From: an uncultured Dehalococcoidia bacterium
GTDB lineage: Bacteria; Chloroflexota; Dehalococcoidia; Lucifugimonadales; G958296245
DNA length: 64,000 nt
Assembly: GCA_958296245.1 (NCBI GenBank)
Contig: OY282458.1
Location: forward strand, 1,386,777 to 1,450,776
Direction: 5' to 3'
Of the stretch, positions 3,287 to 52,503 are shown one piece after another; within the stretch, counting starts at the first letter, position 1; every line of letters begins with the position of its first letter. The notes beneath the pieces are model-generated. The model ran no database searches. It saw nothing but the letters and a program-made list of their open reading frames with translations, and had not been told where the DNA came from. The position numbers were made by a program, and so were the translations under genes.

Positions 3287-3384
3287 TGGCGGGAGCGGGA
3301 GGGAGTCGAACCCACCGCCCCGACCGAAGGGCCGGGGCCAACGGATTTGAAGTCCGCGAAGCCCACCGGGGCCCATCTGCTCCC
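3287..3384 (-). tRNA. selC: tRNA-Sec (anticodon TCA)
   Basis: On the minus strand this 98-nt segment folds as a bacterial selenocysteine tRNA. The acceptor stem is 8 bp (GGGAGCAG with CCGCTCCC, one A-C mismatch), followed by discriminator G and an encoded CCA (3287-3289). The D-stem is the long 6-bp type with a 4-nt loop (GGGCCC CGGT GGGCTT). The anticodon arm is GCGGACTTCAAATCCGT with TCA at 3348-3350. The variable arm is a 9-bp hairpin (GCCCCGGCC, loop CTTC, GGTCGGGGC). The T-loop is TTCGACT, and the T-stem has one T-T mismatch. The 8-bp acceptor and 6-bp D-stem separate tRNA-Sec from tRNA-Ser. It lies 34 bp downstream of, and co-directional with, thioredoxin. The organism should therefore read some UGA codons as Sec; selA, selB and selD are not in the window. 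Confidence 0.96.
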
Positions 3385-9969: not shown

Positions 9970-10800
9970 TCACGTTGGGCGTCTGGATGCCTTGGGGCCT
10001 CGGGTCCAATACTGCCTCAGCACCGCGAGGTGTCGAGTGGTCCAATCCGTGTAGCCAAGTACCAGGGCCTCGTCCGGGTATTTCGAAGACTTTACCTCGT
10101 CCCACACTACGAGATGGATATTGTACTGACCGCAAATTCTATTGACATGGTTCCGAGACACACTCTCGTCTGCCGTGAAGAGGAAGACGTTAGGAGAGCG
10201 AAGATTGAATAACTCCTCCGCTACTTCTGCCCAGCGTTCTCGTAAGGTTCGCTTTATCGATACGACCGCTGAGATGTTCCGATTCGCCTTATGGGTTTGC
10301 AGATCAGGAAGGATCAGGTCGGTTCTATGCTCCATCTCCTGCCGATGGTATGGCAGCTTGGCGAGATCGAGTAATCCTTCGATCTGAAGTTCGAAGTCTT
10401 TGCCGCCTCTCGTCTTGCGGCTCTGGCTAACACTGAGGAAGGCGTCTCTAAAGCGAGGGTAGAGCTCATTGAATAGCAACGAAAACCCTACCCTGAAGCC
10501 CTGATTAGAGGCTTTACGTTCCGCACGTTCGAATGAGCCTGGAAACTCCTCTATGAAGTGACGGGGAATCCCGCTGGCGTAGCTGGACTCTTCGTAGCGT
10601 TCTAGGGTCACCAGGGTTTCCTTCCACAGATTCCAGAGCATCTCGTTGAAACGGGCAGCCACGTGATCGGGATCTACGGATTCACAGACATACCCAAGCC
10701 GCATGAACGTCTCCTTAACGATCACCGTTGACGGTGGCAGCCTGCCCTCTTTGCGGACACGCTTCATCAACTTCCTCATCTGTCCGCGTGGGTCAGCCAT
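9970..10800 (-). CDS. Type II restriction endonuclease, PD-(D/E)XK fold
   Basis: A 276-residue putative restriction enzyme. The C-terminal half shows a PD-(D/E)XK-type core: FELQIEGLLD (helix with Glu137/Glu141), TDLILPD (Asp161) and AVVSIKRTLRERW (S-x-K183, then a basic helix). The SIKRTLRERW ending is, as I remember it, typical of EcoRII/BsaWI-like type II enzymes. Its start overlaps the methyltransferase stop by 8 bp on the same strand, the classic methylase-before-nuclease order. GC content is clearly below the neighbouring catabolic genes, pointing to lateral transfer. The recognition site cannot be read from sequence. Confidence 0.8.
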   Translation of the reverse strand: MADPRGQMRKLMKRVRKEGRLPPSTVIVKETFMRLGYVCESVDPDHVAARFNEMLWNLWKETLVTLERYEESSYASGIPRHFIEEFPGSFERAERKASNQGFRVGFSLLFNELYPRFRDAFLSVSQSRKTRGGKDFELQIEGLLDLAKLPYHRQEMEHRTDLILPDLQTHKANRNISAVVSIKRTLRERWAEVAEELFNLRSPNVFLFTADESVSRNHVNRICGQYNIHLVVWDEVKSSKYPDEALVLGYTDWTTRHLAVLRQYWTRGPKASRRPT

Positions 10801-11818
10801 CAGTGGGAGGATTCCGGAAGTCCAACAGGTATTCGAACGTGGTTCCCATGGTTATGTAGTTGCTCGGCCACCCGAAGATGCCTACTCGATTGACAATGTT
10901 GGTGCGGTCCCAGATTATTGTATTGCGGAACTCGTACCCCGCCTTCCTCAGAGCTTCTACGACGGACATGTGGATGGTGATGCGCCGGTTTTCCCACCAC
11001 ATGTCAGGAACGTTGATGACACAGTGTGCGCCCGGCTTCAGCAGCCTGCGCATTCGCGCAAAGATGTCACCTATCACTGCCGAGTAACGCTCCAAGGGCA
11101 TAGTGCCCAGGTCACGGGGATCCTGAGAATATTGCTCCACGACCCCCAATTGGTCGTTCTTACGGTCCCGCCGAGATTTGTTCCCCCTCTTCCTGTTCAA
11201 TAGGTTGGCGTAGGGTGGAGAGGTTAGGATCAGTGACACACTGCCGGGCGTGAGGTACTCGGCGATCTTAACGGCGTCGTCGTGTATGACCAGTTGCGTT
11301 GTGCCAGTGAACAGGTCCTTCTGAATCAGGCGGCTCTCCGAGACATCTATGTACCTCTGCTGAAGATCGAAGCCCACTGCGTTCCTGTCGGCATCCTGAG
11401 CGGCGACTAGAGTCGTACCGCTCCCGACGAACGGGTCTAGTACCAATTCTCCCCTGTGAGAGAAGAGCTCTATGACTCTTGTAGCCAGTGAAATCGGGAA
11501 AGTGGCGGGATGAATCTTCTTGTCACGGATGTCGCGACCTTCATAGTTGAACTGCCAGACTCCCAACTGGCATTTGAGCCACTCCTTGGCAGACAGGCAG
11601 TTCAAATGGTTGGGTTTGCAACCGCACAGCCGGTCGTGTCCAACCCCCAAGTTGCTCCGGTACAAGGCATTGCCTTCGCGGATGGCATGAGGCAATCTGG
11701 GTACGTCGTGGTTTGACTGACCATCCGCACCCGCATCCACCATGTGTGTCTTCTGGGCCCTCGCTCTCGTAGGTGTCGCTGTTTGAGAGGGTGTGTGACA
11801 AGGTGCTTGCCGAGTCAT
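10793..11818 (-). CDS. Type II DNA methyltransferase (SPPY class, N4-cytosine or N6-adenine)
   Basis: A 341-residue SAM-dependent DNA methylase. Motif I is DPFVGSGTT (128-136), preceded by HPATFP (motif X-like). The catalytic motif is TSPPY (199-203), more often N4-cytosine specific. Motif I comes before the catalytic motif with a C-terminal remainder for target recognition, a gamma-like order. NVPDMWWENRR and the GTTFEYLL region near the end also match this class. It protects host sites from the overlapping endonuclease. The start is uncertain: ATG 11818 has a weak ribosome-binding site and abuts a palindromic repeat; ATG 11743 is an alternative. Confidence 0.88.
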   Translation of the reverse strand: MTRQAPCHTPSQTATPTRARAQKTHMVDAGADGQSNHDVPRLPHAIREGNALYRSNLGVGHDRLCGCKPNHLNCLSAKEWLKCQLGVWQFNYEGRDIRDKKIHPATFPISLATRVIELFSHRGELVLDPFVGSGTTLVAAQDADRNAVGFDLQQRYIDVSESRLIQKDLFTGTTQLVIHDDAVKIAEYLTPGSVSLILTSPPYANLLNRKRGNKSRRDRKNDQLGVVEQYSQDPRDLGTMPLERYSAVIGDIFARMRRLLKPGAHCVINVPDMWWENRRITIHMSVVEALRKAGYEFRNTIIWDRTNIVNRVGIFGWPSNYITMGTTFEYLLDFRNPPTDG

Positions 11819-26282: not shown

Positions 26283-27737
26283 ATGTATCAACCCACGTTG
26301 GAACAGGTCCAACGGCTGGCCGGTATGGGGAACATGGCGCCGGTCTACAGGGAGATCTCCGCCGACCTCGAGACGCCCGTGTCGGCCTACCTGAAGGTAG
26401 CCCGCTCGCCCTACTCGTTCCTGTTCGAGAGCGTCGAGGGCGGCGAGCGCATGGCGCGCTACAGCTTCATGGGCACGGAGCCGTACGACGTAATCACGAC
26501 CGGCCCCGGCCAGCGGCATGGAGACGTGGACCCCCTGAAGCCCGTGCGGGAAGCGCTTGACGGCGTCAGGTTCGTAGAGCCGTCGGAGCGCCAGCGCTTC
26601 AACGGCGGCGCTGTCGGCTATATCTCATACGACGCCGTCCGGCACTTCGAGCGCCTGCCGACTCCGCAATGCGACCCCCTCGGGCTGCCGGAGGCCGTCT
26701 TCATGCTGACGGCGACCTATCTCATATTCGACCACCTCAAACACAAGATCAGGGTCGTCAGCCTTACCCGGCTCGACGGGAACATTCCGAGCGACTACGC
26801 CGACGCGGTAGCGCGCATCGACGATATCGTAGCGCGCCTCCGCTCGCCTCTGAAGCTCCCTGGAGGCCGAGCCCCCGGGCGGGAAGGGCGGACCAGCGTG
26901 AACATGACCCGAGGCCGCTTCGAGGAGATGGTCAGCGCGGTAAGAGACTATATCTACGCCGGCGACGTGATCCAGACTGTGATTGCCCAACGGGTCGCGC
27001 GTCGGACGGACGCCCATCCGTTTCAAATCTACCGCGCGCTGCGCGCCATCAATCCATCGCCGTACATGTACTACATCGATCTGCCCGGATTCCAGATCGT
27101 CGGCGCTTCTCCCGAACTGCTGGTCCGAGTCGAGGACGGCGTCGTAGCCACCCATCCCATAGCGGGCACGCGCCCGCGAGGACACGGCGCCGAGGAAGAC
27201 AAGGCCCTTGAAGAGGAGATGCGCGTCGACGAGAAGGAGCGGGCCGAGCACATTATGCTGCTCGACCTAGGCCGCAATGACATAGGCCGCGTCAGTGAGC
27301 CGGGCACGGTCGAGGTGACGCAGGTGATGGACGTGGAGCGCTACTCCCACGTGATGCACCTGGTATCGCACGTCACCGGCAAGCTGCGCTCCGACTACAC
27401 GGCCTTCGACGCCCTGCGCGCCTGCTTCCCCGCCGGGACCGTCTCGGGCGCCCCCAAGATCCGCGCCATGGAGATAATCGCGGAGTTGGAGCCGGACCGG
27501 CGGGGCCCATACGCCGGCGCGGTGGGTTACTTCGACTTCACAGGCAACATGGACACCGCCATCACGATCCGAACCATGGTCATGAAGGATGGCGTAGCAT
27601 ACATACAGGCGGGCGGCGGCGTGGTCCACGACAGCACGCCCCCACTGGAATACGAGGAGACCATCTACAAAGCTTCAGCCCTGATGCGCGCCATTGAAGA
27701 GGCCGAGGCGGGCCATGAGCCGGAGCGCCTATCGTGA
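26283..27737 (+). CDS. trpE: Anthranilate synthase component I
   Basis: A 484-residue TrpE that makes anthranilate from chorismate with ammonia supplied by TrpG. The N-terminal regulatory part has SFLFESVEGGERMARYSF (the Ser of the Trp feedback pocket). The chorismate-binding domain has IAGTRPRG, EEMRVDEKERAEHIMLLDLG, GRNDIGRV, FPAGTVSGAPKIRAMEII and YAGAVGY. No trpG or other trp gene follows, so the glutaminase and the rest of the pathway lie elsewhere. AGAGGAAA precedes ATG 26283. Its stop overlaps the recR start (GTGA). Confidence 0.96.
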   Translation: MYQPTLEQVQRLAGMGNMAPVYREISADLETPVSAYLKVARSPYSFLFESVEGGERMARYSFMGTEPYDVITTGPGQRHGDVDPLKPVREALDGVRFVEPSERQRFNGGAVGYISYDAVRHFERLPTPQCDPLGLPEAVFMLTATYLIFDHLKHKIRVVSLTRLDGNIPSDYADAVARIDDIVARLRSPLKLPGGRAPGREGRTSVNMTRGRFEEMVSAVRDYIYAGDVIQTVIAQRVARRTDAHPFQIYRALRAINPSPYMYYIDLPGFQIVGASPELLVRVEDGVVATHPIAGTRPRGHGAEEDKALEEEMRVDEKERAEHIMLLDLGRNDIGRVSEPGTVEVTQVMDVERYSHVMHLVSHVTGKLRSDYTAFDALRACFPAGTVSGAPKIRAMEIIAELEPDRRGPYAGAVGYFDFTGNMDTAITIRTMVMKDGVAYIQAGGGVVHDSTPPLEYEETIYKASALMRAIEEAEAGHEPERLS

Positions 27738-28345
27738 CTACACGCAGATACTCGGCAGCCGAGCCCGTCGGACAGCTCGTCGAAGAGCTCCACAAGCTGC
27801 CGGGCATAGGACCCAAGACGGCGCAGCGGCTCACCTACCACCTCGTGCGCATGCCCAGAGACGACGCCATGCGCTTGGCGGACGCCATCCTCGCAGTGAA
27901 AGACCGCATCGTCCTGTGCTCGCAGTGCTACAACATTACGGAGACTGACCCATGCCCCCTGTGCAGCGGACCGACCAGGGACCGGACCCGGATATGCGTG
28001 GTCGAGGAAGCCCTGGACGTGGTGGCCTTGGAGCGGACGGGGGTATACACCGGGTTGTACCACGTGCTCCACGGGGTTATCTCTCCGATGAACGGCATCG
28101 GCCCCGACGAGCTCAAGATCCGCCCGCTGCTGGACCGTCTCAAGGGCGGCGGCGTGCGGGAAGTCATTCTGGCCACCAATCCGAATCTGGAAGGTGAGGC
28201 CACTTCGATGTACGTCCATAATCTGATCGCGCCCCTGGGCGTGAAGGTTACGCGCCCCGCCAGGGGCCTGCCCGTGGGCGGCGACCTCGAGTACGCCGAC
28301 GAGGTCACCCTGAGCCGAGCCATCGAAGGGCGCCAGAGCATGTGA
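27734..28345 (+). CDS. recR: Recombination protein RecR
   Basis: A 203-residue RecR that helps RecO load RecA on gapped DNA. Helix-hairpin-helix LPGIGPKTAQRL, a C4 zinc site (LCSQCYNIT and PCPLC) and a Toprim domain (ICVVEEALDVVALE, GPDELKI, EVILATNPNLEGEATSMY). The start is GTG 27734, four bases overlapping the trpE stop, so translation is coupled. Followed 7 bp later by recO. Confidence 0.96.
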   Translation: MTTRRYSAAEPVGQLVEELHKLPGIGPKTAQRLTYHLVRMPRDDAMRLADAILAVKDRIVLCSQCYNITETDPCPLCSGPTRDRTRICVVEEALDVVALERTGVYTGLYHVLHGVISPMNGIGPDELKIRPLLDRLKGGGVREVILATNPNLEGEATSMYVHNLIAPLGVKVTRPARGLPVGGDLEYADEVTLSRAIEGRQSM

Positions 28346-28352
28346 GGGGTGT

Positions 28353-29141
28353 ATGGCAAGGCCCCGTACATATGAGACGGAGGGCGTCGTTCTCAGGCAG
28401 ATGCCTCTGGGTGAAGCCGACAGGATACTGACGCTCTTTACCCCTGACCGGGGCAAGCTGCGCGTGGTGGCGAAGGGCGTTAGGAGGCCCAAGAGCAGGC
28501 TGGCCGGCCACTTGGAGCCCCTGACGCGCGCCCGTGTATCGGTCAGGGAGGGGAGGTCTCTGGACCACGTCGGCGAGGCGGAGACCCTGCGGAGCTACCG
28601 CCGGTTGCGCGAAGACCTGAAGCTCGTGAGCAAAGGCATCTACCTCGCCGACCTCATCGATAGCTTCACCGTCGACCAGTCGCCGTCTACGGCTCTCTTC
28701 GACGTACTCGTAGGCTCCTTGGCCTGGCTTGAGAGCGCGTCGGGGGTCGAGGAGGCGCTCCGCTACTTCGAGGTGCAACTGCTTCACGTGTCGGGGTTCG
28801 GGCCGGAACTGCGGAACTGCGTCGAGTGCAGGTCGGCCTTGAAGCCGTCCCCGTACGGGTTCTGCGCCGCCGCGGGCGGCATCCTCTGCGCCGGATGCGG
28901 TGCGTCCGCGAAGGGCTCGCTGATACCGCTTTCCGTCAATGCCATCAAGCTTCTGCGGTTCTTCCAGCGGGAGCCGCCCGCTGCCGTCGCCGGCTTTGTG
29001 GCGCCAAGCCGTGTTCTCCAGGAAGCAGCTTGGGCGCTGCGAGGCCACATTACCTATGTCTTGGAGAGGGACTTGAAGAGCGCGCGCTTCATGAATCTAG
29101 TCGCGGCGGCCGCGCCGCGCCGCAAGCCCATCGCTATCTGA
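28353..29141 (+). CDS. recO: DNA repair protein RecO
   Basis: A 262-residue RecO. N-terminal OB-fold (TEGVVLRQMPLGEADRILTL, GKLRVVAKGVRRPKSRLAG), helical middle, and a zinc finger with CVECRSAL and CAGCGAS. It mediates annealing and RecA loading together with RecR, encoded 7 bp upstream. GAGGGG precedes ATG 28353. Its 3' end overlaps by 8 bp the 3' end of the convergent SDR gene. Placement of recR-recO under a Trp-responsive leader is unusual. Confidence 0.95.
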   Translation: MARPRTYETEGVVLRQMPLGEADRILTLFTPDRGKLRVVAKGVRRPKSRLAGHLEPLTRARVSVREGRSLDHVGEAETLRSYRRLREDLKLVSKGIYLADLIDSFTVDQSPSTALFDVLVGSLAWLESASGVEEALRYFEVQLLHVSGFGPELRNCVECRSALKPSPYGFCAAAGGILCAGCGASAKGSLIPLSVNAIKLLRFFQREPPAAVAGFVAPSRVLQEAAWALRGHITYVLERDLKSARFMNLVAAAAPRRKPIAI

Positions 29142-31646: not shown

Positions 31647-32480
31647 ATGGCCGGAAATGGCCCAATTTGCGTTTCGGTGATTAACATGAAGGGCGGCGTC
31701 GGCAAGACAACGATTGCAGCGTTGCTGGCACGTCATGCGGCTGAAAAGCTGAACCTCAAGGTTCTTGCTGTCGACCTCGACCCGCAGGCGAACTTATCCC
31801 AGGCGCTCATGGGATCTAGTGCATACAAACAATTCATAGACAACAGAGCGCCATCAATTGTTGAAGTCTTTGAGGGCTATATGCCTCCAACTCCGAGCAA
31901 CCCATCACCCAACCCGCTTGATGTAGGTGATGTGATTCAGAGGATTCTCGCTAATCTGCATGTCATTCCTTCGAGATTCGATTTTTCTAACCATCTGGTT
32001 AATTCAATTGGGACTAATCAGCGAGTCTTGGCACAGCTTATCGCTAATAATTTCCAGGATAGAGACCTTGTAGTCATAGATTGTGCACCGACCGAATCCA
32101 TATTCACTCAGGCTGCATACCACGCATCTCGTTACATCCTCGTACCTGTCAAACCAGAGTTTTTGGCAACGATCGGATTCCCCTTGCTGGATCGCTCCCT
32201 TGAAACGTTTAGAAACGCGAACCCGGGACAGGCTATTGATGTCATTGGCGTTGTGATCAACGACACTTCTGATTACCAAGCTTACTCAACACCTGAAAAA
32301 AACAGGGCTTTGGCTGAGATAATCGAAGAATCAGAAAAAGATGGTTGGTATTTGTTCGCTAATTGGCTTAAATACTCTCGTGGGTTTCCTAAGATGATGC
32401 GAGGCGATTTCAATTCCCCTGGGCATGCCCCGCATATATTTTCTCGTTTTGCAGAAGAGTTTTTTGAGAGGCTCACATGA
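31647..32480 (+). CDS. ParA/Soj-like ATPase
   Basis: A 277-residue deviant-Walker ATPase of the ParA/MinD class. The Walker A' motif KGGVGKTT (15-22) follows INM, AVDLDPQANLSQAL gives the A'' Asp, and LVVIDCAPTES is Walker B. VKPEFLATIGFPLLDRSL follows, as in Soj. No N-terminal DNA-binding domain. Codon usage and GC are much lower than in the neighbours, indicating recent transfer. Its stop overlaps the next gene's start by 4 bp (ATGA), so it works with that small protein. Could be a plasmid or prophage partition remnant or an ATPase of a defence module. Confidence 0.85.
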   Translation: MAGNGPICVSVINMKGGVGKTTIAALLARHAAEKLNLKVLAVDLDPQANLSQALMGSSAYKQFIDNRAPSIVEVFEGYMPPTPSNPSPNPLDVGDVIQRILANLHVIPSRFDFSNHLVNSIGTNQRVLAQLIANNFQDRDLVVIDCAPTESIFTQAAYHASRYILVPVKPEFLATIGFPLLDRSLETFRNANPGQAIDVIGVVINDTSDYQAYSTPEKNRALAEIIEESEKDGWYLFANWLKYSRGFPKMMRGDFNSPGHAPHIFSRFAEEFFERLT

Positions 32481-32983
32481 TGACTGACGCGAAGCTCAGA
32501 ACGGCTCTCCAGCCTATAGTCCAAGAGTATAGCTTAGGAAGGGTTCTTAAGTCTTTGGGAGAGATTGCAGATGCGCGACATGAAACCTCAGAACAGCTTG
32601 CGACATCTCCCAACGGAGTTGCAAAAGCGACCACGCGAAAAAAGCCAAAAGTCACAGCATCTGGATATGTCGAGAAGATGGAACTTCCTATCGCGAAATC
32701 GGCAGCGGTAGCTGAGCTTGCGGAACGATTCCAACGGAAGTCTTTCTTGCCCACTGTTAATGATATTGCCAATTTCTGTCAGATGTACGGAATTGAAGTG
32801 CCTGCGTCCAAGAGCCGTGCAAGCGCTATCCCCAGGATATTCAAATTCATAGCCGGAATGGAAGCTGACGAAATTCAAAGAATACTGGCCGATGGGATGT
32901 TCTCCGGTCCGTCAAGGCTGGGGCCTATTGCTGACGCAATTCGCAATTACGGCGGTGCAACCTCTCAACGGTCGGCGAGATGA
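32477..32983 (+). CDS. Small protein paired with the ParA-like ATPase, unknown function
   Basis: A 168-residue soluble protein. The first 70 residues are polar and basic (TTRKKPKVTAS), the middle has helices (SAAVAELAERFQRKSFLPTVNDIANFC), and the end has SRASAIPRIFKFIAGM and SRLGPIADAIRNYGG. I see no ParB nuclease domain and no clear helix-turn-helix, though the basic centre could bind DNA. It is translationally coupled to the ParA-like gene and shares its low GC, so it is probably the partner or cargo adaptor of that ATPase. The GC rises again at its last codons. Confidence 0.65.
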   Translation: MMTDAKLRTALQPIVQEYSLGRVLKSLGEIADARHETSEQLATSPNGVAKATTRKKPKVTASGYVEKMELPIAKSAAVAELAERFQRKSFLPTVNDIANFCQMYGIEVPASKSRASAIPRIFKFIAGMEADEIQRILADGMFSGPSRLGPIADAIRNYGGATSQRSAR

Positions 32984-49499: not shown

Positions 49500-51527
49500 T
49501 TATCTACGGTGGCGTACCCACGGTTTCCACCATCGACGGGCCGGACGCAATCTATTGCCAAGAAAAGCCTCTAAGCTGCCCCTATGCAGCACCGTTCTAC
49601 CGCCACCGCCCGCGTCTTCATCGATCAAAGTCGATGGCACGTCTTCCCACTCAAACCCGCGTCTGCCGAAGGCGTCACGCTGCTCCCAGACGATGACCCT
49701 GTCGCCGTCGATCATCCAGCCATTAGACCTGTCGCCCTCGCTATTCGCGCGGGCCGACAATCTGAGCAGGTTCTTGAGGCGGACCTTCACGCGGTCGTAC
49801 CGCTTTTCGGCGTAGCTGAGCCAGGTCATAGTCTGGCACCAATGCGGCAGAGGACCATCTGTAGCTTGCAAGATGATGCCGCTCAGCACATCCGACGAGA
49901 GGGCCAACCAGTCCTTCGGCAGCCGTTCGTCGGCGAGGCGGTCCATGACTTCCACCAAGTAGCGCCGGTAAAGGTGTCCCGTTAGGTCATGCCGCATCTC
50001 CTGTATTCTGCTCTGCAGGCGCTGACGCCGCTCTTCGTCATGGGGCGGCAGCGCCGTCGTCGTGTATATCATCATGCTGCGCTTGACCACCTCGTCGGGG
50101 AATGATTGAGGCTCTGCATTCATGGAGAGTACGAATGCCGGATACTCCAAGACGGGAGGCTGTAGCTCGTCTTTAATCATGTCTTTACCGTAGCGATTGA
50201 AGGCGCTGCGTCGTATGTCGTCAAACACTACTGGGAAGCGTTTATATCCCCGTTGCAACCCTCGGAGCTGAGCTGTGGTAAAGCTCTGTTTGTCCACAGT
50301 GTGAGCATAGCCGAACATAGAAGTCATGAGGGTGTCTACGAGGCTGGTCTTGCCGCAGTTCGACTTTCCGAAGACTATGGCAAAGGAGGGGTACTGTATT
50401 ACGTCGCTATCCTGCAAGAGAGCCAGAGACCGCATGTCGCAGATGAACGGCGCGAAGTACAGCCATGCCATGAACGTGAAGTAATCGCGCTGGAGGCGTT
50501 CCACATTTCCCTCAAATGCGCCCTCGTAGTTCTTGAAGTAGTCTAGGAGCAGTCCCGCGTCCCTCTTGACCGAATCGGCATCGCATTCCAGTGGGAATTG
50601 CTCACCCGACAGCAGAGCGGAACGGGTCTCCCTATCGATAGAGAGATAGCGGTTGTCCGCTTCCTCGGCGGACTTGACGAGACGTACCCGGCTTATCTCT
50701 CGCTTGATCTCAGGGGTGATTCGCTGCTTGCCGTTGCGAATCGCGGGGAATGCAGCGGATATACGCGGCCCGAACACCGCCGCGACTTTCTCTATACGTT
50801 CTATTTGGGCCGGCGCCGCTACCGGCAACTCCTCTACTGGCGGCGCTTCGATAACGAGTGTGCCGAGCTCATCGGCTATGACAGGAGTCTCTGATACTTC
50901 GATTTCAGCGGTGACTATCTTTTCCTCCGGCAGTGGAATCTCGTCAGAGGCCGAGTTCCGTATCTCGTCAAACATCCTGTTGTAGTGGTCCCACGCCTTC
51001 CCGTCGTCATCGAACGTGACCAGAGTCTCAGGCTGTCTCCCAGAGAAAGCCTGCTCTGACAGGTTGGCGGAGCCAACGATCACCCGTGTGCGCCCGTCCG
51101 AGCTCGACAGCAGGTACAGCTTCGCATGAGCTATCGACTTCTTGAGGACTCGGAAATGAGCCTGGCCAGTGCGCACCCTCTCGAGGATGCGTATATGCCG
51201 TTCGTCTTTCAGCCCCATGATTGCGGCCCGAGTGTCACCTACGACTACCTTCTGGAACGCCAAGATGTTCTTTATCTCGCGCAAGGTGCCTTCGCATCCA
51301 AACACGCATTCGAATTTGGAGAACGAATACTTGTCCAGCATCCTGACGATAGCGGCGACGCTCGCGGAGTATGTCAACACGCGCAGGCTGTCGTAGCCCC
51401 CAAACAGATCCCAATCAAACCTCTGTTCGTTCAAGAACTTGGCTTCTACTACTCGGAGCCCGGTACCGTCATCTAATGCGAGTTCGGCTTGAGGCTCGGA
51501 CGTTCCGGGTGCTTCAGCCCACATCAT
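49500..51527 (-). CDS. PLD-nuclease/P-loop ATPase fusion protein (candidate defence protein)
   Basis: 675 residues. The N-terminal part (to about 195) is a phospholipase-D-type nuclease domain: IAHAKLYLLSSSDGRTRV (HxK) then VIVGSANLSEQAF, a single HKD motif, so probably active as a dimer. Residues 200-340 form a linker rich in Glu and Pro, then charged helices. From about 370 comes an ATPase with AIVFGKSNCGKTSLVDTL (Walker A), FPVVFDDIRR (Walker B), AFVLSMNAEP (sensor) and EVVKRSMMIY (arginine finger), arranged as in SF3/D5-type helicases. The C-terminal 100 residues look like a winged or adaptor domain. GC is lower than in the neighbours. PLD nucleases joined to NTPases are common in phage defence; I do not know this combination as a named system. 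Confidence 0.78.
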   Translation of the reverse strand: MMWAEAPGTSEPQAELALDDGTGLRVVEAKFLNEQRFDWDLFGGYDSLRVLTYSASVAAIVRMLDKYSFSKFECVFGCEGTLREIKNILAFQKVVVGDTRAAIMGLKDERHIRILERVRTGQAHFRVLKKSIAHAKLYLLSSSDGRTRVIVGSANLSEQAFSGRQPETLVTFDDDGKAWDHYNRMFDEIRNSASDEIPLPEEKIVTAEIEVSETPVIADELGTLVIEAPPVEELPVAAPAQIERIEKVAAVFGPRISAAFPAIRNGKQRITPEIKREISRVRLVKSAEEADNRYLSIDRETRSALLSGEQFPLECDADSVKRDAGLLLDYFKNYEGAFEGNVERLQRDYFTFMAWLYFAPFICDMRSLALLQDSDVIQYPSFAIVFGKSNCGKTSLVDTLMTSMFGYAHTVDKQSFTTAQLRGLQRGYKRFPVVFDDIRRSAFNRYGKDMIKDELQPPVLEYPAFVLSMNAEPQSFPDEVVKRSMMIYTTTALPPHDEERRQRLQSRIQEMRHDLTGHLYRRYLVEVMDRLADERLPKDWLALSSDVLSGIILQATDGPLPHWCQTMTWLSYAEKRYDRVKVRLKNLLRLSARANSEGDRSNGWMIDGDRVIVWEQRDAFGRRGFEWEDVPSTLIDEDAGGGGRTVLHRGSLEAFLGNRLRPARRWWKPWVRHRR

Positions 51528-51638: not shown

Positions 51639-51875
51639 TCATCGTCCCGTGCGCCAGGCCATCTTCATATAGACGCCCCCCGCCTCCAGCTCGTCCAGCA
51701 TCTGGGCCAGCCGCCTGCGCCGCGTATCGTCGCGCTTGGCCCTGGCTATCCAGCCGAGGTAGTCGTTGCGCTGGTACGGGGGACGGGCCTCGTACGCCTC
51801 CATCATGCCGCGCTCCGTCAGGGCCTCGCGGACGGAGTCCGGCATCTTGTGCAGGGTTCTTCTCAGGGGCGGCAC
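51639..51875 (-). CDS. Short OmdA/YdeI-like protein
   Basis: 78 residues that match the C-terminal unit of the YdeI/OmpD-associated (OmdA) family: MPDSVREALTERGMMEAYE, YQRNDYLGWIARAKRDDTRR and RLAQMLDELEAGG. The start is GTG; in frame just upstream is a TAG, so the usual N-terminal half of longer members is missing. It may be a genuine short form or a truncated gene. The first 66 bp of the gene and its leader are repeated at 52438-52503. Confidence 0.65.
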   Translation of the reverse strand: MPPLRRTLHKMPDSVREALTERGMMEAYEARPPYQRNDYLGWIARAKRDDTRRRRLAQMLDELEAGGVYMKMAWRTGR

Positions 51876-51889
51876 GCCGGCCTGTGCCT
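51824..51889. repeat. Direct repeat, copy 1 (5' end of the OmdA-like gene)
   Basis: 66 bp, including CCTCGCGGACGGAGTCCGGC and TCTTCTCAGGGGCGGCACGC, repeated in the same orientation at 52438-52503 with about 9 to 12 differences. The pair flanks the 548-bp segment that carries the TM2 gene. Confidence 0.8.
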
Positions 51890-52437: not shown

Positions 52438-52503
52438 CCTCGCGGACGGAGTCCGGCATATCACGCAGCGGTCTTCTCAGGGGCGGCACGCCGGCCTATG
52501 CTC
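52438..52503. repeat. Direct repeat, copy 2 (OmdA-like gene 5' fragment)
   Basis: On the minus strand it would encode V-PPLRRPLRDMPDSVRE before leaving the OmdA frame, matching V-PPLRRTLHKMPDSVRE of the gene at 51639. Only this 5' fragment remains; the sequence then becomes the leader of the TM2 gene. Confidence 0.75.

Follow-up and report, generated by a model that had tools for sequence, protein, structure and literature searches.

Can a single gene that joins a PLD nuclease to a helicase-type ATPase serve as a defence system of its own, as an earlier note made from the DNA letters had proposed, or does it serve the replication or spread of mobile DNA, or DNA repair? The gene lies on the minus strand of the window, by which the whole stretch of 64,000 nucleotides analysed is meant, as a reading frame open from end to end (49500-51527) with an ATG start and its stop at 49500-49502. 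The PLD nuclease and the SF3/D5-like ATPase that the note had placed in one protein of 675 residues were both recovered, from Pfam for the PLD part and from ATPase motifs and fold matches, and the motifs it had named (HAK, GSANLS, Walker A, Walker B, SMN and VKRS) are all present (Table 1). The PLD domain matched the Pfam families RE_NgoFVII (1.6e-7, 31.2 bits, cut-off 23.8) and PLDc_2 (2.4e-6, 27.8 bits, cut-off 27). The HMM search suggested in the note was borne out in part: PLDc_2 was above its cut-off, but the ATPase half stayed below the cut-off of every Pfam family, with E 0.0055 for RNA_helicase (PF00910) of the SF3 group. Scans for sigma-70 promoters and terminators gave scores not above those of shuffles.

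Table 1 Features of the PLD-ATPase gene and its predicted protein (positions in the window)
Feature	Position	Strand	Length or basis
PLD nuclease - SF3/MCM-like AAA+ ATPase fusion (predicted), whole gene	49500..51527	-	675 aa
PLD nuclease domain, N-terminal, ~residues 25-201, single HKD	50925..51455	-	Pfam and structure comparison
HxK catalytic motif, HAK, residues 134-136	51120..51128	-	aligns with AgaP H105/K107
GSANLS, residues 152-157, second half of PLD catalytic motif	51057..51074	-	S153 and N155 invariant, n=45
Linker, ~residues 202-290, poorly conserved	50660..50924	-	alignment; pLDDT <50 over residues 202-292
SF3/MCM-like AAA+ helicase-type domain (predicted), ~residues 285-577	49797..50675	-	structure comparison, model
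Walker A, GKSNCGKT, residues 387-394	50346..50369	-	motif and homolog alignment
Walker B, VVFDD, residues 433-437	50217..50231	-	motif and homolog alignment
Sensor-1-type SMN, residues 468-470, N470 invariant	50118..50126	-	motif and homolog alignment
VKRS, residues 481-484; invariant R483, candidate arginine finger	50076..50087	-	motif and homolog alignment
C-terminal tail, ~residues 578-675, beta-strand/helix module; range aligned with Cch extends into the tail	49500..49795	-	model, structure comparison

The model of the whole protein had a mean pLDDT of 61 (about 80 in the PLD part), and the ATPase half modelled alone had a pLDDT of 73. Compared with solved folds, the PLD half (residues 26-202 of the model) matched SauUSI (Z 12.7), the NgoAVII R protein (Z 11.5) and Nuc (Z 10.5), in a set of matches that also takes in PLD folds which are not nucleases. 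The best solved match of the modelled ATPase half was the helicase Cch of SCCmec, with Z 9.6 and an rmsd of 8.0 over 288 residues, followed by SaPIBov1 Rep (Z 8.4). Both were well above the third row, an MCM at Z 5.0; among the rows after Cch and Rep are Mcm proteins of CMG, AsfvPrimPol, D5/E5 and NrS-1. Fold and active-site residues together predict a member of the PLD nuclease superfamily joined to one of the SF3/MCM-like AAA+ helicase group. The structure prediction proposed earlier thus recovered a PLD nuclease fold, and the matches to Cch, Rep and D5/E5 agree with the label 'SF3/D5-like' given to the ATPase. A sequence search of solved structures with the window protein gave no match at E 1, and profile searches of solved structures gave weak matches only, including NucT and BfiI for the PLD half and YjoB for the ATPase half.

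The residues expected of both active sites are conserved. In all 45 full-length homologs compared, from bacteria and archaea, H134, K136, S153 and N155 of the PLD half are invariant, as are G387, G392, K393, D436, N470 and R483 of the ATPase half (45/45), while D437 of the Walker B motif is kept in 44 of the 45. The dN/dS ratio was 0.07-0.16 where measurable, and 0.08-0.16 in pairs unsaturated at silent sites, and the gene family is under strong purifying selection. Because the active-site residues are kept in 45 homologs and dN/dS is low, the fusion protein is not a product of chance.

Close homologs (54-76% identity) are found in many Chloroflexota, and distant full-length homologs in Rubrobacter (35%) and on plasmids of Acetobacter and Komagataeibacter (~27%); the homolog on a Thermus plasmid is split by a transposase. 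Within the window's own order the distribution is patchy, with a match in 32 of 146 other genomes, and the copy number reaches five per genome. The lower GC content reported earlier was confirmed at 56.9% for the gene against 63.4% for the window, with a GC3 of 0.69 against 0.80-0.90 in the neighbour genes; the small adjoining TM2 gene is also low, at 0.60. This composition suggests that the gene was acquired from elsewhere. Such composition and distribution, as well as the plasmid location and the occurrence in multiple copies, do not fit a housekeeping enzyme of DNA repair or recombination resembling tyrosyl-DNA phosphodiesterase, an explanation which has in its favour that Tdp1 is among the PLD folds matched, that haloarchaeal relatives are annotated as tyrosyl-DNA phosphodiesterase by pipelines and that one relative is found beside genes for an SMC-family ATPase and NurA. 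Tdp1 has two HKD motifs, against one in the window protein, and the repair explanation is considered highly improbable.

The closest experimental evidence for the family comes from AgaP, of the APAP systems (long-A pAgo + PLD), a link that is absent from the earlier note. The link to a large set of haloarchaeal homologs on megaplasmids came through a bridge protein (L035) of the window's own class; this protein has 29% identity with AgaP (E 4e-82) and 21% with the window protein (E 8e-11). The profiles of the window family and the AgaP family aligned with E 1.1e-37 over 613 columns, and NpAgaP aligned with the window family in hhalign with E 1.3e-16 over 557 columns. NpAgaP was located in Natrinema pellirubrum (L065:7007-9160), where the gap between ago and agaP is 64 bp, and was identified by H105, K107, E112, G119, S120, D122, G157, S158 and N160 at the positions given in PMC11442185. 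Judged from these alignments, the window protein is a full-length homolog and ancient relative of AgaP, with PLD nuclease, linker and P-loop ATPase in the same order and with the essential HxK and GSxN residues of AgaP conserved.

AgaP alone is toxic, and its toxicity depends on HxK/GSxN and is suppressed by Ago (Cheng et al. 2024, PMC11442185). Plasmid restriction with the Argonaute partner requires the PLD active site of AgaP, and AgaP enhances immunity to viruses (PMC11442185). The word 'ATPase' is absent from the main text of PMC11442185, and the conserved helicase-type ATPase half carried by AgaP and its relatives, unmentioned in published work, appears to have been overlooked. In four haloarchaeal megaplasmid loci (L059, L060, L062 and L063) the AgaP-type gene is directly downstream of a Piwi gene, overlapping it by a few bases in L063, and in three other haloarchaeal loci (L056, L057 and L064) it is beside genes for UvrD, a PD-(D/E)XK nuclease and a helicase, in a stretch without Piwi. 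Genes of ThiF-family adenylyltransferases were observed near the AgaP-type gene in two of the latter (L056:10099-11862 and L064:9707-11473), together with two small hypothetical genes, and may form a ubiquitin-like conjugation module sharing an island with that gene.

The window gene differs from AgaP in its lack of an Argonaute partner. No Argonaute gene neighbours it within the window, and no Piwi match was obtained in the window genome or in 15 other carrier genomes; in 20 further carrier genomes nothing was above the cut-off, with one sub-threshold match. From the Piwi search of these 36 carrier genomes, the bacterial members are predicted to operate without Argonaute. The catalytic motif is also arranged differently: it is compact in the window protein, in which HAK ends at residue 136 and GSAN starts at 152, and split in NpAgaP (107 to 157), so the HxK(x)49GSxN pattern that defines APAP is not found in the window protein. 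By homology the window gene is of the AgaP type, but having neither an Argonaute nor the split motif it is outside the APAP definition. The P-loop is a canonical GKT in the window protein and GKT or GKS in the other bacterial proteins, compared with GKG in seven haloarchaeal sequences, including NpAgaP.

Several members of the family are directly beside defence genes, of types that include type I and type IIG restriction, a CBASS cyclase and DSR2-like, AbiEii and Shango-like genes. An HKD-Snf2 helicase and a type IIG enzyme adjoin the family gene in two loci (L006 and L041), and in another (L048) it is flanked by two BrxC/D ATPases and a helicase and by an EVE-HARE-HTH-AAA_5 protein. In one genome (G395), fragmented and with 7% estimated contamination, a DSR2-like gene (26364-29141) comes after the family gene at C76:24005-26056, a CBASS cyclase lies at a distance of about 1.1 kb from a second family gene (C13:19947-21986) and HsdR adjoins a third (C122:3333-5384), and in another genome (G429) two family copies are each about 0.8 kb from an AbiEii gene. 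The PADLOC families matched by 104 neighbours numbered 274 in one set and 166 in a second, from the window's own order, compared with 32 for 104 genes taken as controls from some of these genomes, counts which overstate the enrichment in that a single helicase matches many models. The best control match was 4.5e-27 and those of the neighbours went down to E 0; the enrichment is carried by a minority of loci. Defence linkage of family members is frequent, not universal. With regard to the proposal in the earlier note that homologs be counted in defence islands, several copies are beside defence genes, but the window copy and four others (L010, L045, L046 and L049) are among metabolic genes. The defence role that the note had put forward is made likely by the homology to AgaP and by the copies beside known defence genes. 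The plasmid copies amid toxin-antitoxin genes, the patchy distribution with its multiple copies and the Piwi search of carrier genomes were also counted in its favour.

Many members of the family are plasmid-borne, including copies on conjugative and mobilizable plasmids that are surrounded by toxin-antitoxin genes. This location, together with the finding that the nearest solved relatives of the modelled ATPase half, Cch and Rep, are replication helicases of mobile elements such as pathogenicity islands and cassettes, would suit a replication or maintenance protein of such elements, in which a PLD nickase works with an SF3/MCM-like helicase. One copy, on an Arcobacter plasmid, adjoins ParA/ParB, and genes for a replication initiator and a DnaB-like helicase are found about 4 kb away. 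This is however the exception: homologs consistently placed beside phage or plasmid replication genes, which according to the note would have pointed to replication, were not the rule. One plasmid carrier has a replication gene of its own, integrase, origin or capsid genes were not seen with most chromosomal copies, which stand by themselves, and the phage and viral-contig collections searched contained no relatives. The effect of AgaP on plasmids is restriction, not help (PMC11442185). A role in replication is accordingly regarded as unlikely.

Near-identical copies bear on the dispersal of the gene. Four of those in G395 show 92-93% identity along a stretch of about 2.1-2.3 kb, made up of the gene with a little flank, beyond which the sequences are unrelated; the same holds for copies in G429 and G437, and the stretch shared with G437 spans approximately ATG to stop. 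Because near-identical copies share the gene and not the flanks, the gene moves largely alone, with mixed strains in G395 as an alternative source of its copies. The points at which the shared stretches end differ from copy to copy, with no common ends seen, and neither terminal inverted repeats nor target duplications were seen in the aligned flanks of multi-copy genes.

These gene-confined copies bear on two further explanations. In the first, the gene would be toxin-like or selfish, of the addiction or homing type, spreading as a single gene, and not a dedicated anti-phage system. The toxicity of AgaP by itself (PMC11442185), the position of several plasmid copies amid toxin-antitoxin genes and the high identity over the gene alone are consistent with this, and the lack of a conserved antitoxin partner in the neighbour comparison was also counted in its favour. 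The absence of common ends, inverted repeats and target duplications argues against it, and repeated adjacency to unrelated defence genes fits defence better; a selfish gene was considered quite unlikely. In the second, the PLD-SF3 protein would be the mover of a new type of one-gene mobile element tending to land in defence islands: the PLD half would nick DNA with a covalent protein link, the helicase half would unwind it and the gene would copy itself. Near-identical copies with unrelated flanks would be explained by such a mover, which is nevertheless thought very unlikely.

In the window, the gene is next to a 78-aa OmdA-like fragment, a TM2 protein and sugar-type oxidoreductases. Contrary to the earlier description of these as accessory genes, none recurs beside homologs, and the all-against-all neighbour comparison gave no recurrent partner except for the shared synteny of close strains. 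The single-gene organisation proposed in the note was upheld, since without a conserved partner the gene is a one-gene unit. An empty site was sought in the closest genome available (G310, flanking oxidoreductase 69%), where synteny was limited to that one gene, so the comparison did not demonstrate an insertion. A 64-bp direct repeat, 89% identical, lies on either side of the TM2 gene (51824-51887 and 52438-52501); its first copy overlies the OmdA-like fragment in the 5' part, which may reflect an insertion of the TM2 gene into an OmdA gene or its duplication together with one.

Other features of the window and its genome were observed in passing. A low-GC ORF of 341 aa (10793-11818, minus strand) is DNA methyltransferase-like by eye, with the motifs DPFVGSGTT and TSPPY, and it overlaps the start of a low-GC ORF of 276 aa (9970-10800, minus strand), a candidate for its restriction endonuclease; the pair (9970-11818, minus strand) resembles a small type II restriction-modification system. 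The stretch with the lowest GC in the window (0.476; 31647-32983, plus strand) encodes a 277-aa ParA-like ATPase (31647-32480, plus strand) followed by an ORF of 168 aa, and is perhaps a plasmid remnant or an integrated partition module. A selenocysteine tRNA gene is predicted at 3287-3384 on the minus strand. Outside the window, the same genome has two more PLD domains of the RE_NgoFVII type (G000:C1:2101881-2102117 and 1267859-1268077), which fall within open frames of 1137 and 1171 aa that may code for PLD-helicase proteins.

The probable explanation is that the window protein is a stand-alone relative of AgaP, independent of Argonaute, in which a helicase gates a nuclease to give a one-protein weapon against invading DNA. 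This defence reading is inferred from the intact and conserved halves, the homology to AgaP, the lack of a partner, the adjacency to defence genes and the sharing of the gene alone; the analogy to AgaP extends over a chain of relatives at 20-29% identity, and to a protein whose behaviour depends on Argonaute. The SF3/MCM-like half would assemble as a ring, load on DNA that is single-stranded, replicating or otherwise unprotected, and translocate on it using ATP. The PLD half, probably dimeric, would nick or degrade the loaded DNA with no need for metal ions. In haloarchaea an Argonaute would restrain or guide the AgaP-type nuclease, while the bacterial solo form would have its own ring as both sensor and brake, and the solo protein would therefore, unlike AgaP, be tolerated without an Argonaute until triggered. 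The outcome could be direct destruction of the invader's DNA or suicidal damage to the host chromosome.

The homology ties an unnamed and widespread bacterial family to an archaeal plasmid-restriction protein that has been studied experimentally, and raises the question of whether Argonaute joined a nuclease-helicase already able to work by itself, in which case the original sensor of foreign DNA would have been the ATPase and not the guide. An SF3/MCM-like motor would also be added to those of the defence PLD nucleases, for which the known families and papers searched gave SF2 motors only.

The earlier note could not assign this architecture to a named system, and no entry for the fusion protein exists in PADLOC 2.0, NCBIfam or Pfam, and scans with the PADLOC 2.0 and NCBIfam libraries would miss the gene because there is no model for it. 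A search of freely licensed papers found none on a PLD-SF3 defence protein, and a 2024 reappraisal of phosphorothioate systems described HKD-SF2 fusions and D5-type SF3 helicases apart. A link to DISARM DrmC, which the note had cited as an example, was not supported: the DrmC model scored 12.1 bits, where the cut-off is 133, and there were no DrmA, DrmB or MTase neighbours in the window. MADS Mad8 was a weak match to the ATPase only (E 5e-4), with no MADS operon in the window; its model also picks up 2 of the 104 controls, as strongly as 4.5e-11, and is hence unspecific as a guide to function. With the PLD-helicase antiphage model NF042964 the window protein scored 11.3 bits, far below the cut-off of 1100.

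PLD_Helicase (PADLOC; NF042964) and PbeA/HKD-Snf2 are likewise fusions of a PLD nuclease and a helicase in defence islands, but their helicases are of SF2, unlike the predicted SF3/MCM-like motor of the window protein. SauUSI, an ATP-dependent PLD restriction endonuclease and the solved structure that the PLD domain matched best, also combines a PLD nuclease with an ATP-driven motor in one protein; its motor is an SF2 helicase and it has a reader of modified bases, whereas a reader domain was not found in the window protein. The PLD restriction enzymes NgoAVII, BfiI and NgoFVII share the PLD domain family, by the Pfam and structural matches above, but they have a sequence-specific B3-like DNA-binding domain, which was not found in the window protein. 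SCCmec Cch and SaPIBov1 Rep, closest to the ATPase half in fold, act in mobile-element replication and are without a PLD-type nuclease domain. From its predicted domains, the window protein resembles the PLD-helicase nucleases but uses a different class of motor.
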